A stretch of DNA of 64,000 nt from contig NZ_VRLT01000059.1 in NCBI RefSeq assembly GCF_008017835.1, positions 310,001 to 374,000 of the forward strand. Direction: 5' to 3'. The position numbers and the translations under genes were made by a program. Each line of letters begins with the position of its first letter. Position 1 is the stretch's first letter. The DNA comes from Mesonia sp. HuA40. GTDB lineage: Bacteria; Bacteroidota; Bacteroidia; Flavobacteriales; Flavobacteriaceae. Shown piece after piece: positions 17,136 through 60,294 of this stretch. The notes beneath the pieces were generated by a model. That model saw only the letters and a program-made list of their open reading frames with translations, was not told the DNA's origin and did no database searches.

Positions 17136-17831
17136 ATGAATATGAGAAACGAAAAAAGACACAAGGGATGGAATGAGATTAAAACCAATGATAGTTGGGC
17201 CATTTTTAAAATAATGGGTGAATTTGTTGAAGGCTATGAAAAAATGAGCCGAATTGGTCCTTGTGTTTCAATATTTGGATCGGCACGTACTAAAGAAGAT
17301 CACAAATATTACCAATTGGCACAAAGCGTTGCTGCCAAAATTGTAGAACACGGCTACGGTGTCATTACAGGAGGTGGACCCGGTATTATGGAAGCTGGAA
17401 ATAAAGGCGCGCACCAAGCGGGGGGCGTTTCGGTTGGTTTAAACATAGATTTGCCTTTTGAGCAGCATGATAATCCTTATATCGATAAAGATAAAAACTT
17501 AAATTTTGACTACTTCTTTGTTCGTAAAGTAATGTTTGTAAAATATTCTCAAGGTTTTGTAGTAATGCCAGGTGGTTTTGGCACATTAGATGAATTATTC
17601 GAAGCCATCACGCTAATACAAACCCATAAAATCGATAAATTTCCGATCATCTTAGTTGGACGCGAATTTTGGGGCGGTTTATTTGACTGGGTCAAAAAGA
17701 CATTGTTAGACTCTTTTAATAATATCAGCGCAGGCGACATGGATTTAATACAATTGGTTGACACCGAAGAAGAGGTTATTGAAATACTCAATAAGTTCTA
17801 CGATGAATTTAACTTAAGTCCGAATTTCTAA
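17136..17831 (+). CDS. LOG family protein (TIGR00730), long form
   Basis: 231 residues, Rossmann-type protein of the lysine decarboxylase-like/LOG family with the paired motifs GGGPGIMEAGNKGA and PGGFGTLDE that form the nucleotide ribose-phosphate binding site. LOG enzymes hydrolyse cytokinin-type and other nucleoside monophosphates; other members act on purine nucleotides. The substrate here is unknown. It probably shares a transcript with uvrA (13-base gap). A second, shorter LOG gene occurs in this window on the minus strand near 36.5 kb. Confidence 0.87.
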   Translation: MNMRNEKRHKGWNEIKTNDSWAIFKIMGEFVEGYEKMSRIGPCVSIFGSARTKEDHKYYQLAQSVAAKIVEHGYGVITGGGPGIMEAGNKGAHQAGGVSVGLNIDLPFEQHDNPYIDKDKNLNFDYFFVRKVMFVKYSQGFVVMPGGFGTLDELFEAITLIQTHKIDKFPIILVGREFWGGLFDWVKKTLLDSFNNISAGDMDLIQLVDTEEEVIEILNKFYDEFNLSPNF

Positions 17832-17883
17832 AAAAAATTTCTGGTACTTGCTTGTTATAAGTAAGTACCCATTGTTTTCTTTT

Positions 17884-51732: not shown

Positions 51733-51768
51733 AAAAATCCTTTCTTTATTTAACAAGAAAGGATTTTT
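51733..51768 (-). terminator. Intrinsic terminator downstream of the ABC-F gene and its 3' structured element
   Basis: 14-bp perfect stem (51733-51746 with 51755-51768), 8-base loop. On the minus strand the stem is followed by a run of seven T, so it is best oriented to end minus-strand transcripts. Confidence 0.85.
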
Positions 51769-51777
51769 ATTGTGCAA

Positions 51778-51872
51778 GGGGTAGCAGCGGCATCCTTTTT
51801 GGCTTTTCTTGCCAAAAAGATATAGCGGATGACCCGACCCGCTGGTAACTAATTACCAGCGGGTTGCACCCC
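51778..51872 (-). ncRNA. Structured intergenic element, candidate conserved RNA or dispersed repeat
   Basis: 95 bases, more GC-rich than its surroundings, directly after the ABC-F stop codon. Closing stem GGGGT/ACCCC (51778-51782, 51868-51872). A perfect 12-bp hairpin with loop CTAA (51837-51848, 51853-51864). A second nested stem: CATCC/GGATG (51791-51795, 51827-51831) enclosing CTTTTTGGC/GCCAAAAAG (51795-51803, 51811-51819). An intrinsic terminator follows on the minus strand, so minus is the likelier direction. I recall similar sequences in other Flavobacteriaceae gaps. It could match a known flavobacterial RNA family such as Flavo-1, but I cannot check. Confidence 0.6.
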
Positions 51873-56786: not shown

Positions 56787-57179
56787 TTAATCCAGTATAG
56801 GAGTTGGTTTTTTATTTTCATCTATGGCCACTAAAGTAAACAGGCCTTCTATTGATTTTTTTCGAGTATTTTCTTCATACATCTCTTCTTGATAAATGGT
56901 AACGTTTACCTTTATACTTGTTCGGCCAACGCGAACAACTTCTCCAACTAGTTCAATAATAGTATCGGCAGGAATAGGTTCATTAAAATCTATTTGACTA
57001 GAAGAAATGGTCACCATTTTTTTTCGACTGAACCGGGTAGCCGTTATAAAAGCAACCTCATCCATTAAATGCATGGCAGTACCTCCAAAAAGCGTATCAT
57101 AGTGGTTGGTGGTATTGGGAAAAACTACTTTAAACAGCTGCGTTCTTGATTTATAAATGCGTTCTTTTAAATTTTTCAT
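56787..57179 (-). CDS. Acyl-CoA thioesterase, hotdog fold (YciA/BFIT-like)
   Basis: 130 residues. Hotdog domain with VVFPNTTNHYDTLFGGTAMHLMDE, the asparagine-to-aspartate active-site pattern of YciA-like acyl-CoA hydrolases, and FNEPIPADTIIELVGEV. Substrate unknown. Odd position: between nrdB (29 bases upstream) and nrdA (11 bases downstream), so it shares their transcript and the riboswitch control. Confidence 0.88.
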   Translation of the reverse strand: MKNLKERIYKSRTQLFKVVFPNTTNHYDTLFGGTAMHLMDEVAFITATRFSRKKMVTISSSQIDFNEPIPADTIIELVGEVVRVGRTSIKVNVTIYQEEMYEENTRKKSIEGLFTLVAIDENKKPTPILD

Positions 57180-57208: not shown

Positions 57209-58183
57209 TTAAAATAAATCTAATGCGCTAATACGCTTATCGTGCTTGGTATAATCTACCGGTCGCTTTGCAAAGAAATCATCTAAAGAATTTGCAAATA
57301 TCTCTTCTTCAAACCATTGCATTGGGAGATATTCTTGTGCGGTTATATTAAAAATGGGGTTTATTCCTATTTTTTTTAGGCTATCGTCTGTCCTAAATTT
57401 CATGAAATTTAGTAAATCTGATTGGTTTAAATGCGTTACTGCACCTTCTGCAAAAATCCAGTTGAGAATTTCTGCCTCGACTTCAATTGATTTTTTAACA
57501 ATATCAGTAATTTCTTGTTTGGTTTCTTCCGTAAAGAAATCGGGAAACTCTTCTTTGATCTTGTTGATAATAAATATACCCGCATTGGCATGAATTTGTT
57601 CGTCTATAGAAGTCCAGGCAATGATATTACTTACATTTTTCATTAAGCCTCTAAATCGTGAAAATGAGAGAATGATGGCGAACTGACTAAATAAGGAAAC
57701 ATTTTCTATTAAAATGGCAAATAAGATTAAGGAGAAAAGGTATTTCTTTTTGTCTTTTTCTTGTGTAAATTGAAGTGCCTGAGATAGATATTCAAACCGT
57801 TTTTTGATAACAGGAACATTCATTAGCTCTTCAAAGGCTTGATTATAGCCTAAAACCGACAACAAACGCGAGTAGGCTTCTGAATGTCTAAATTCACATT
57901 CTGCAAAAGTGCTCCCCAAGCCATTAAATTCTGGTTTGGGCAAGTGGTGATACAAATCTCCCCAAAATGATTTTACAGCCACTTCAATTTGAGCAATTGC
58001 CAGTAAACTCTTTTTTAAAACTTGTTTTTCATTTAAGGTAAGTTGAGCCTGAAAGTCTTGTACGTCTGCGGTGAAATCTACCTCGGTGTGCACCCAAAAC
58101 GATTTGTTAATCGCCTCTGTAAATTCTATTACCTCTGGGTATTCAAATGGTTTGTAATTTACTCTTTTGTCAAAAATGCTCAT
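57209..58183 (-). CDS. nrdB: Class I ribonucleoside-diphosphate reductase, beta (small) subunit
   Basis: 324 residues, ferritin-like R2. Metal ligands: E67, E97, H100, E160, E195 and H198. The radical tyrosine is Y104 in ECEFRHSEAY, so this is a tyrosyl-radical, B12-independent enzyme. There is no N-terminal ATP-cone, so neither subunit carries the usual dATP off-switch domain. It makes the radical that NrdA uses. First gene of the operon; a 5' region of about 250 bases contains a cobalamin riboswitch. Confidence 0.95.
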   Translation of the reverse strand: MSIFDKRVNYKPFEYPEVIEFTEAINKSFWVHTEVDFTADVQDFQAQLTLNEKQVLKKSLLAIAQIEVAVKSFWGDLYHHLPKPEFNGLGSTFAECEFRHSEAYSRLLSVLGYNQAFEELMNVPVIKKRFEYLSQALQFTQEKDKKKYLFSLILFAILIENVSLFSQFAIILSFSRFRGLMKNVSNIIAWTSIDEQIHANAGIFIINKIKEEFPDFFTEETKQEITDIVKKSIEVEAEILNWIFAEGAVTHLNQSDLLNFMKFRTDDSLKKIGINPIFNITAQEYLPMQWFEEEIFANSLDDFFAKRPVDYTKHDKRISALDLF

Positions 58184-58273
58184 TGTGTATATTTATTTAA
58201 GTGAAACAAAAACACAAAAAACAAAATATACGTTATCTGCTTTTGGCTGAATTACCTTGAAACAAAAGACAAC

Positions 58274-58303
58274 GGAATTTGCTTTTTATGCGAAAACAAA
58301 TCC
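58274..58303 (-). promoter_or_regulatory. Hairpin after the riboswitch, possible expression platform
   Basis: Minus-strand GGATTTG-TTTT and AAAA-CAAATTCC can pair with one or two bulges. A T-rich but interrupted stretch (GTTGTCTTTTGTTT) follows. It could act as a terminator controlled by the aptamer just upstream; translation-level control is not excluded. Confidence 0.4.
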
Positions 58304-58304
58304 T

Positions 58305-58430
58305 CTTTGAAGAAGTTAGGTAATCTGACTTGACAGGTTTAATCCTGCTTACAGTTGCGCAACAGTTCGTGATTTTCACACGATTCCCCTAATGTACTTG
58401 AGTTTAAAAAACTTCGCTCTTCTTCAATTT
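58305..58430 (-). ncRNA. Cobalamin (adenosylcobalamin-type) riboswitch upstream of nrdB
   Basis: On the minus strand the conserved core GGGAATCGTGTGAAAATCAC (58387 down to 58368) continues into the aptamer segment GCGCAACTGTAAGCAGG, and then the B12 box AAGTCAGATTACCT (58331-58318), all in the right order. A closing stem pairs GAAGAAG (58425-58419) with CTTCTTC (58315-58309). These blocks match the cobalamin riboswitch consensus well. It lies 120 bases before nrdB, so cobalamin binding likely represses the nrdB-thioesterase-nrdA operon. Confidence 0.9.
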
Positions 58431-58437
58431 AGATGCT

Positions 58438-58445
58438 CAAAAGTA
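58438..58445 (-). promoter_or_regulatory. -7 promoter element TACTTTTG for the riboswitch-nrd transcript
   Basis: Minus-strand TACTTTTG fits TAnnTTTG. Transcription would begin about 6-7 bases on, just before the first riboswitch stem. No TTG at -33. Confidence 0.5.
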
Positions 58446-58519
58446 AACAAGATATCTCAGCTTGGCTAAAAAACTTTTTAACCGGTGTTAATAAGTTTTT
58501 TAAATGAGTTAGAATGCAA

Positions 58520-58553
58520 AAAAAAATCAGCCAAAATTTGACTGATTTTCTTA
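58520..58553 (-). terminator. Intrinsic terminator after the transaldolase gene
   Basis: Minus-strand AAAATCAGTCAAA and TTTGGCTGATTTT pair with one mismatch, then a run of nine T. Separates the transaldolase gene from the nrd promoter. With the riboswitch, this accounts for the 388-base gap between the two genes. Confidence 0.8.
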
Positions 58554-58571: not shown

Positions 58572-59228
58572 TTATTGATTGCCTTTTTTATAGTCTGCTA
58601 GAAACTTTTCTAAACCAATATCGGTTAAAGGGTGCTTAAGGAGTCCATCAATAGAAGAAAGGGGTCCTGTCATAACATCGGCACCAATTTTTGCACAATC
58701 AATTACGTGCATGGTATGTCTTACCGATGCCGCTAGAATTTCGGTATCAAATGCGTAGTTATCATAAATATGTCTTATCTCGGCTATCAAATTAAGACCG
58801 TCTGTTGAGATGTCATCTAATCTTCCTATAAACGGAGAAACGTAAGTTGCTCCTGCTTTTGCTGCTAGTAATGCTTGTCCTGCCGAAAAAACAAGCGTAC
58901 AATTGGTTTTAATTCCTTTTTGACTAAAATAACGTATAGCCTTAATGCCGTCTTTTATCATAGGAACTTTGACCACAATTTGATCATGTAATGCGGCTAG
59001 TTCTTCCCCCTCTTTAATAATATTGTCATAATCTGTCGCAATAACTTCTGCACTTACATCGCCTGTTACAATTTCACAGATGGCTTGGTAATGCTTTTTA
59101 ATGTTATCTTCTCCTGTAATACCCTCTTTAGCCATTAAAGAAGGGTTGGTAGTAACCCCATCAAGAACGCCTAAGTCCTGAGCTTCTTTTATTTGATTTA
59201 AGTTTGCTGTGTCTATAAAAAATTTCAT
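58572..59228 (-). CDS. Transaldolase / fructose-6-phosphate aldolase family protein
   Basis: 218 residues, short single-barrel transaldolase type (TalC/FSA). Start [17 protein letters not shown] with the active aspartate, then [13 protein letters not shown], catalytic lysine in [12 protein letters not shown], and [29 protein letters not shown]. It is either a transaldolase of the pentose phosphate pathway or a fructose-6-phosphate aldolase; the SPFIGRLDD form favours transaldolase. Same strand as the SDR gene, 28 bases after its stop. Confidence 0.92.
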
Positions 59229-60063: not shown

Positions 60064-60166
60064 ATTTAAAATAATAGAGGGCAAATATCTACTTTTTTAA
60101 GAGAAAAATTAAAGAATTAGAATAAAATAAATGGAAGAAAAACTTTGACTTAAGTCATGAAAAAAT

Positions 60167-60264
60167 GGCAAGCTACCCACATCACACCGCTACGACCGTT
60201 TACCTTTGCTGCGTTCCCGCCCTGGAGGATTCAACAGGAGCTGGTTGTGTGGGACTTGCCGCTG
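60167..60264 (-). ncRNA. ffs: Signal recognition particle RNA, small bacterial type
   Basis: About 95 bases on the minus strand folding into one long hairpin: GGCAAG at the 5' end pairs with CTTGCC at the 3' end, and further complementary blocks (CCCACA... with TGTGGG). The apical part holds the conserved SRP domain IV features CCAGGGCGGGAACGCAGCAA, the GGAA-type loop with the Ffh-binding internal loops. A short T-run follows the 3' end, so the hairpin may terminate itself. It guides membrane proteins with Ffh to the membrane. Confidence 0.85.
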
Positions 60265-60294
60265 CAAATATACAAGGTTTATCTATTTTCGCAA
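60265..60294 (-). promoter_or_regulatory. Promoter of the SRP RNA gene (TTG-N19-TATATTTG)
   Basis: Minus-strand TTG (60294-60292), exactly 19 bases, then TATATTTG (60272-60265), immediately before the RNA 5' end. Perfect fit to the Bacteroidota housekeeping promoter. Confidence 0.8.

Follow-up and report, generated by a model that had tools for sequence, protein, structure and literature searches.

The stretch of DNA analyzed here (64,000 nt from Mesonia sp. HuA40, hereafter the window) carries on its minus strand the genes nrdB and nrdA of a ribonucleotide reductase (RNR), with a gene for an acyl-CoA thioesterase between them and a cobalamin riboswitch (approximately 58427-58274, minus strand) upstream of nrdB. 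Coordinates of all features are collected in Table 1. The nrdB and thioesterase genes are separated by 29 nt, the thioesterase gene and nrdA by 11 nt; the family matches of NrdA begin at its residue 3-4. With such short gaps the three genes very likely form one operon, in agreement with the earlier suggestion that the thioesterase is under the same control. Orthologues of the thioesterase are repeatedly located under B12 riboswitches. Just 5′ of the aptamer lies the box TACTTTTG. The consensus of the flavobacterial −7 promoter element is TAnnTTTG, and exact copies of this pattern were found in 8 of 18 representative leaders, compared with 1.08 expected from mononucleotide shuffles. The box may be a promoter element of the leader, for which the pattern count is suggestive only.

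Table 1. Features of the nrdB-thioesterase-nrdA locus and its leader (positions of the window)
Feature	Position	Strand	Basis
Transaldolase-like ORF upstream of the leader	58572-59228		ORF list, identity by eye
Terminator-like hairpin and T run, 3′ of the upstream gene, parting this gene from the leader	58515..58548	-	by eye
TACTTTTG, candidate flavobacterial −7 element just 5′ of P1	58438..58445	-	pattern count
P1, outer stem by which the aptamer is closed	58427-58419 with 58315-58307	-	own-versus-swapped test, 18 leaders
Aptamer core: P3, P4, P5/L5, P6, short P7, B12 box AAGUCAG	58317..58391	-	Rfam, R1, covariation
L5, UGCG	58361-58358	-	within the aptamer core
P13 hairpin	58274..58303	-	alignment, covariation
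L13, CGCA, kissing partner of L5	58292-58289	-	complementarity
Anti-P13 strand, pairing with 58291-58277 (P13 3′ side and L13) as H2	58212..58227	-	comparison
Start-codon hairpin H3 (58217-58204 with 58198-58183), predicted OFF structure	58183..58217	-	comparison
nrdB, class Id RNR small subunit, 324 aa	57209..58183	-	PF00268, structure matches
Middle gene of the operon, acyl-CoA thioesterase of 130 aa with hotdog fold	56787..57179	-	PF03061, 62.7 bits
nrdA, large subunit, 548 aa	55129..56775	-	TIGR02510 (NrdE-prime), 717 bits

The core, the middle segment, and the B12 box appeared in the order given in the preliminary description, all on the minus strand. The distance of 120 bases to nrdB given there had to be revised: the nrdB start codon follows the end of P13 at a distance of 90 nt, and the B12 box is located approximately 135-150 nt upstream of this codon. 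Comparison with Rfam yielded a match to RF01482 (AdoCbl) at 58411-58271 (minus strand) with 51.9 bits (cut-off 50, E = 1.2 × 10−6). The proposed search for a cobalamin riboswitch was thus successful with this family, but not with RF00174, whose score of 31.0 bits fell just below the cut-off of 31.5; by covariance-model score, membership of clan CL00101 is obtained via RF01482 and not via RF00174. This thin margin is due to the aptamer being a compact subtype with a short P7 hairpin. The strands of P1 (UUGAAGAAG and CUUCUUCAA) were left unaligned by Rfam. Among 11 sister leaders, six exceeded a cut-off and five were missed (L012, L013, L031, L036, and L061). Because the sister leaders match RF01482, RF01689, or RF00174, the name of the Rfam family is no guide to the ligand.

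The comparison was then extended to other NrdB loci, of which 103 were found and the best 80 retained. A strict aptamer pattern missed variants, and a covariance model (R1), built from 25 nrdB leaders including that of the window, was used instead. R1 matches of at least 90 bits were located 5′ of nrdB in 24 of the 80 loci, and no R1 match preceded nrdB in the other 56. The scores of the 24 positive loci, like the 120 bits reached by the window leader, are partly circular, since these leaders are part of the model; the 56 negatives are not affected. At nrdB in five leaders without R1 match, no Rfam model passed its cut-off (0/5). Outside the sample used for the model, R1 matched with 89.7-108.6 bits upstream of five class Id-like nrdB genes (L208, L178, L182, L179, and L188), which belong to four other families.

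The aligned aptamers displayed compensatory changes. In the aptamer, 95.3% of the cells were paired (88.3 in shuffles), and two-sided changes affected 10 pairs and 44 cells, compared with 6.1 and 14.3 in shuffled alignments and with 13 cells in the best slid control. Further pair types were not above the shuffles (21 versus 19.0; 80/500). Four of five measures of covariation in the P3-P6 core with the B12 box were therefore above every shuffle, and one was not. For P1, the 5′ strand of each leader was combined with 3′ strands taken from the others, using 18 representatives that had been hand-picked from 28 leaders to thin out close relatives; pairing as good as that of the own strands was reached in 0 of 5000 permutations, i.e. 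P1 covaries as well.

A kissing loop between L5 and L13, as required for clan CL00101, was indicated by complementarity with compensated versions. Of 70 sites with the core pattern, 67 have a complement of the L5 4-mer no more than 90 nt 3′ of the B12 box; this is a raw count with duplicates of one place included, and we estimate the chance of a given 4-mer in a 90-nt stretch at about 1/3. Three main versions were observed: (i) UUGCG with CGCA, mostly upstream of nrdB; (ii) UCGCG with CGCG, upstream of PAS protein and other genes; and (iii) UCCCG with CGGG, the btuB type. The btuB-type riboswitch of the own genome has UCCCG and CGGGA, and the two riboswitches of this genome therefore differ from each other in a compensated way.

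The enzyme encoded by the operon differs from what had been assumed. The best solved relatives of NrdB are 6CWO, 8DQ4, 8DQ5, 6CWQ, and 6CWP, and its alignment with 6CWO is gapless over residues 1-324. According to PMC6754362, 6CWO is the class Id NrdB of Flavobacterium johnsoniae. Class Id enzymes contain a Mn2 III/IV center made with superoxide and no stable Tyr radical, and they are marked by a Glu replacing Asp (Tyr/Glu pairing), Lys71, and Thr191 in F. johnsoniae numbering, as described in PMC8463856. NrdB of the window carries these residues, with E67, K71, Y104, and T191; we read position 67 in the gapless alignment as the Glu of the Tyr/Glu pair. In class Ia, the class implied by the preliminary description, the first metal ligand is Asp and the Tyr radical is stable; here position 67 is Glu, and the closest solved chain is of class Id. 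The claim that NrdB keeps a tyrosyl radical and iron ligands was accordingly not supported. Judged by its class Id relatives, from which the cofactor is taken, NrdB is probably a dimanganese enzyme activated by superoxide, and it should be described as such rather than as an oxygen-requiring iron enzyme.

Two predictions concerning the rest of the genome (2.64 Mb, 99.76% complete, 62 contigs) were borne out. A class II reductase is encoded at C33:84183-85781 (NrdJ, TIGR02504, 573 bits, cut-off 399.95), and B12 uptake is represented by a 99.9-bit riboswitch 5′ of a gene for a BtuB-like TonB receptor of 609 aa, with a Peripla_BP_2 gene beside it and divergent FecCD-like and ABC ATPase genes, recognized by eye, at the same locus. 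PF02867 matched only NrdJ and the NrdA of the window, and NrdD (PF13597) gave no match in this genome; the RNRs found were NrdJ and the nrdB-thioesterase-nrdA operon only. B12-binding domains exceeded the cut-off solely in methylmalonyl-CoA mutase and an IcmF-like fused mutase, and therefore no MetH is evident by PF02310. A corrinoid adenosyltransferase is encoded as well. A search for MetE (PF01717) gave no match in the own genome, which by these two families has neither MetE nor an evident MetH (the latter judged by PF02310 only).

Between P13 and nrdB, we detected two helices that could serve as expression platform. In the 28 leaders, the 3′ side of P13 together with L13 can pair with a strand at approximately −50 to −28 that stops 20-36 nt short of the start codon (H2). 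Alternatively, this anti-P13 strand pairs with the start region from −17 to +3 (H3). H2 is mutually exclusive with P13 and with H3. Compared with shuffles, H2 had p < 0.06 in 24 of the 28 leaders and p > 0.1 in L031, L036, L040, and L044. In own-versus-swapped tests, H2 gave 0/5000, and again 0 when restricted to the anti-P13 window, and H3 gave 0.0002; the values for four control segment pairs were 0.54, 0.59, 0.43, and 0.78. Two leaders, L036 and L044, had only a weak H3, and in L023, L026, and L079 strands from other leaders paired about equally well. The out-of-sample test of the helices was valid for four leaders (L188 being excluded) and gave p-values for H2 and H3 of 0.000 and 0.010 in L208, 0.034 and 0.000 in L178, and 0.010 and 0.002 in L179; in L182, neither was significant (0.104 and 0.146). 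Sequence comparison thus supports both alternative helices.

Folding calculations were more ambiguous. Two constrained states were compared for the region from −13 to +5: one with P13 and L13 withdrawn, which mimics their being locked by ligand, and one in which H2 could form but the 5′ strand of P13 could not pair. Accessibility was lower in the former in 24 of 28 leaders (mean difference 0.164), whereas L024, L031, L036, and L040 showed no gain and the opposite sign. When the P13-to-ORF segment was folded without constraints (ensemble at 25 °C), accessibility of the start region was within 0.05 of the 'bound' value, or below it, in 18 of 28 leaders; for the window leader, it was 0.23, compared with 0.30 for the withdrawn state. 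Energy alone thus does not make ON the resting state, and on computed energies OFF is often the resting state of this segment. The minimum-energy fold of the whole window leader at 37 °C contains P1, H2, and an unpaired AUG, with upstream sequence holding the 5′ side of P13; the stability of the whole leader was not unusual compared with shuffles (z = −0.65).

These energies bear on a rival reading in which a genuine aptamer controls the operon by terminating transcription, a hairpin after P13 being an intrinsic terminator. The failure of computed energies to favor ON at rest in 18 of 28 leaders would fit such a mechanism, as would the U-rich stretch 3′ of P13 in the window leader and the closest tested precedent, which is transcriptional in the excerpted part of PMC10653944. 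The conserved H3, however, enters the start region together with the AUG and not a U tract, and the linker from P13 to the anti-P13 strand is not conserved among the aligned leaders. We regard termination as quite unlikely. A translational OFF switch appears to be the simplest reading; it is supported by the comparison of leaders, although folding energies alone do not settle the matter.

The presence of the riboswitch coincided with that of NrdJ, which exceeded its cut-off in 23 of 24 genomes with riboswitch and in 14 of 56 others (80 genomes). In L061, a MAG of 2.1 Mb, the riboswitch was present and NrdJ did not exceed the cut-off. When mapped onto a tree built from 81 NrdB proteins, the riboswitch label requires three changes and NrdJ 11, which means that only few events underlie the association with NrdJ. 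Among the three pairs that are independent, L023/L025 and L072/L069 agreed and L021/L066 disagreed (2/3). Given the three riboswitch changes, the association constitutes weak independent evidence and was dropped as strong statistics. The change counts rather indicate that riboswitch and nrdBA descend or move jointly as a cassette. Genomes with the cassette comprise Mesonia-like bacteria, Salegentibacter, Marixanthomonas, Polaribacter, Paenimyroides, and Saprospiraceae. Neither riboswitch nor NrdJ was found in Mesonia with another NrdB lineage (L032, L039, L052, and L065), and F. johnsoniae CI04 (L037) had no R1 match and no NrdJ above the cut-off.

Inheritance of the cassette as a unit would also be expected if the riboswitch were decayed or non-regulatory and merely carried along with mobile nrdBA genes, an explanation that would agree with the marginal Rfam scores and with leader L129, where the normal L5 has been lost to a degenerate version, yet NrdJ is present in the genome. 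It is difficult to reconcile with a core, L5, L13, and both alternative helices that are kept with compensatory changes in many genera, or with the Mesonia genomes in which the other NrdB lineage occurs with neither riboswitch nor NrdJ, and we consider it very unlikely.

In our view, it is likely that the compact cobalamin riboswitch represses nrdB-thioesterase-nrdA at high cobalamin levels through a helix at the start codon, and that the operon takes part in an exchange between NrdJ and the class Id enzyme. We infer the ligand, the direction, and the translational level of this control as follows. Plentiful intracellular cobalamin, probably AdoCbl, would repress the three genes. It would steady the L5-L13 kissing loop and hence the P13 hairpin; with P13 formed, the anti-P13 strand would be free to fold onto the nrdB start codon and translation would be blocked (OFF). 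Without cobalamin, the anti-P13 strand would take the 3′ side of P13 and L13 (H2), and the start region would be open (ON). The class Id RNR and the thioesterase would then be made, and the cell would move from the B12-dependent NrdJ to the Mn-dependent class Id RNR. The thioesterase would probably free CoA from acyl-CoAs that accumulate when the AdoCbl mutases (MutB and the IcmF-like enzyme) stop.

To place the thioesterase, whose best solved relative is 2gvh, we compared its occurrence across genomes. Its gene adjoins nrdBA in 11 of the 24 riboswitch loci (in one of them, L012, as a partial match of 55% only) and in none of the 56 others, within the stretches compared. Orthologues with at least 50% identity were detected in 38 of 199 Flavobacteriaceae genomes, and at least five of these 38 are located downstream of a cobalamin riboswitch on the same strand: in the own genome (G000) and G098, in G060 (with metE first), in G077 (directly), and in G069 (with a PAS protein first). 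Close orthologues occurred in 53 of 396 Bacteroidia genomes. The set examined further comprised 51 loci, leaving out the own genome and G161 (as L144, without R1 match). In 27 of the 51, the 5 kb upstream of the thioesterase gene contained a same-strand R1 match of at least 26 bits, and no misplaced R1 match was found at these loci. Rfam riboswitches of the cobalamin clan exceeded the cut-off in 27 of 48 loci (10/12, 12/12, 0/12, and 5/12 in successive batches; L226-L228 left out), adding L204 and L215 (R1 below 26 bits) and missing L212 and L194. The union of both searches places a B12 riboswitch upstream of the thioesterase gene in 29 of the 51 further loci.

The gene contexts of these 29 loci are diverse. 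They comprise (i) class Id-like nrdB-thioesterase-nrdA (six loci); (ii) metE before the thioesterase gene (eight); (iii) other, distantly related class I nrd genes (five); (iv) a PAS protein before the thioesterase gene (two); and (v) the thioesterase gene alone or with other genes (eight). The last group includes L194, where we take the ORFs after the thioesterase gene, by eye, to resemble CobT and CobS. In L187, L204, L220, L221, and L222, the riboswitch precedes the thioesterase gene and a distant class I nrd set (22-30% identity), which occurs in both gene orders. Cobalamin riboswitches were also observed at metE-like genes of Flavobacteriaceae (L135, L137, L141, and L145), with metE followed by the thioesterase gene in L137. 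The compact riboswitch was further located (58.7-75.7 bits) 5′ of a gene for a PAS-like protein of approximately 160 aa, recognized by eye (L126, L128, and L130-L134). This protein has what is presumably a LOV-like motif (GKKPxFLQG) without the photoactive Cys; a fragment of 90 aa gave no match in Pfam. A PAS-like gene stands directly before the thioesterase gene in L140, L142, L145, and L146, with a riboswitch match in front only at L140; riboswitch, PAS-like gene, and thioesterase gene follow each other in a row in L186 and L214.

Conversely, the thioesterase could be a mere passenger of such operons with no role related to B12. No riboswitch was found upstream in 22 of the 51 Bacteroidia loci, none was seen for 33 of the 38 Flavobacteriaceae orthologues among the matches listed, and the genus of G161 is represented by four loci, three without riboswitch (L144, L185, and L191) and one with it (L212). 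A passenger would hardly be expected, however, to stand downstream of a same-strand B12 riboswitch in 29 of 51 loci in several contexts, with none misplaced, or to neighbor nrdBA in loci with riboswitch exclusively, and we think this unlikely. With riboswitch-linked orthologues in so many gene contexts, the thioesterase most likely serves cells without B12, and it looks like a recurrent, probably undescribed member of a B12-starvation regulon. Since the genome encodes two AdoCbl mutases, release of CoA from stalled acyl-CoAs is our best guess for its function, the substrates being perhaps those acyl-CoAs that pile up when the mutases stop. Somewhat more speculatively, the thioesterase, made only at low cobalamin levels, may be a core member of a B12-starvation regulon of Bacteroidota, hydrolyzing propionyl-, methylmalonyl-, or isobutyryl-CoA from stalled AdoCbl mutases; it might form one package for B12 independence with class Id RNR and MetE, with the LOV-like PAS protein as a further member. 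We put forward this extended version only tentatively.

In Streptomyces, a cobalamin riboswitch precedes the class Ia genes nrdABS and represses this B12-independent RNR, and the genome also encodes a class II NrdJ. The locus in the window is alike in that a class I RNR without need for B12 stands behind a B12 riboswitch and NrdJ is encoded in the same genome. It differs in the class Id Mn enzyme, the compact aptamer, the order nrdB-thioesterase-nrdA, and the occurrence in Bacteroidota. Regarding the platform, mutations in Priestia megaterium metE demonstrated pairing between the P13 3′ side and the terminator 5′ side (PMC10653944, in excerpt). This corrinoid riboswitch resembles the one proposed here in that a L5-L13 kissing loop steadies P13, whose 3′ side has an alternative partner in the 5′ strand of the OFF hairpin; there, however, this hairpin is a transcription terminator, whereas the proposed OFF hairpin of the window covers the start codon. 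In E. coli btuB and env8HyCbl, as described in the same excerpt, translation is blocked by a hairpin whose formation the kissing loop favors, as we propose for nrdB; unlike in these riboswitches, the start codon of nrdB is approximately 90 nt away from P13, with a separate anti-P13 strand in between.

The enzyme itself is like the class Id RNRs of F. johnsoniae and Leeuwenhoekiella blandensis in the excerpts of PMC8463856 and PMC6754362, given its ungapped alignment with the former and the four residues named above. The words 'riboswitch' and 'cobalamin' have no occurrence in the main text of PMC8463856. That some RNRs are under the control of B12 riboswitches is stated in PMC8123684. Among the matches listed from the open-licence literature, no paper reports by title or abstract that a class Id RNR or this thioesterase is controlled by a B12 riboswitch. 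Control of a B12-independent RNR by such a riboswitch is a known idea, whereas the class of the enzyme, the platform, and the link to the thioesterase appear to be new. A single RNA switch would thereby tie the choice between RNRs with cobalt and manganese cofactors in Bacteroidota, and its proposed form yields predictions of the mechanism base by base. The recurrence of the thioesterase suggests that, when B12 is lacking, bacteria swap enzymes and also clear blocked pools of acyl-CoA, hinting at a little-noticed part of how bacteria cope with the lack of this cofactor.

Several minor observations were made. A further R1 match in the window (17766-17871, 23 bits) overlaps the end of an ORF and a terminator-like hairpin and was discarded. 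Genome G056 harbors two strong copies of the nrdB riboswitch, L123 (C5:112659-112778) and L124 (C6:61755-61875), one of which precedes a full nrdB and the other a truncated nrdB of 114 aa. A small SRP RNA of the Bacteroidales type (RF04183, 102 bits) is located near the operon at 60162-60268 (minus strand) of the window, and a Flavo-1 RNA (sRNA family, RF01705) was detected at 51765-51843 (plus strand) with 44.3 bits (cut-off 42).
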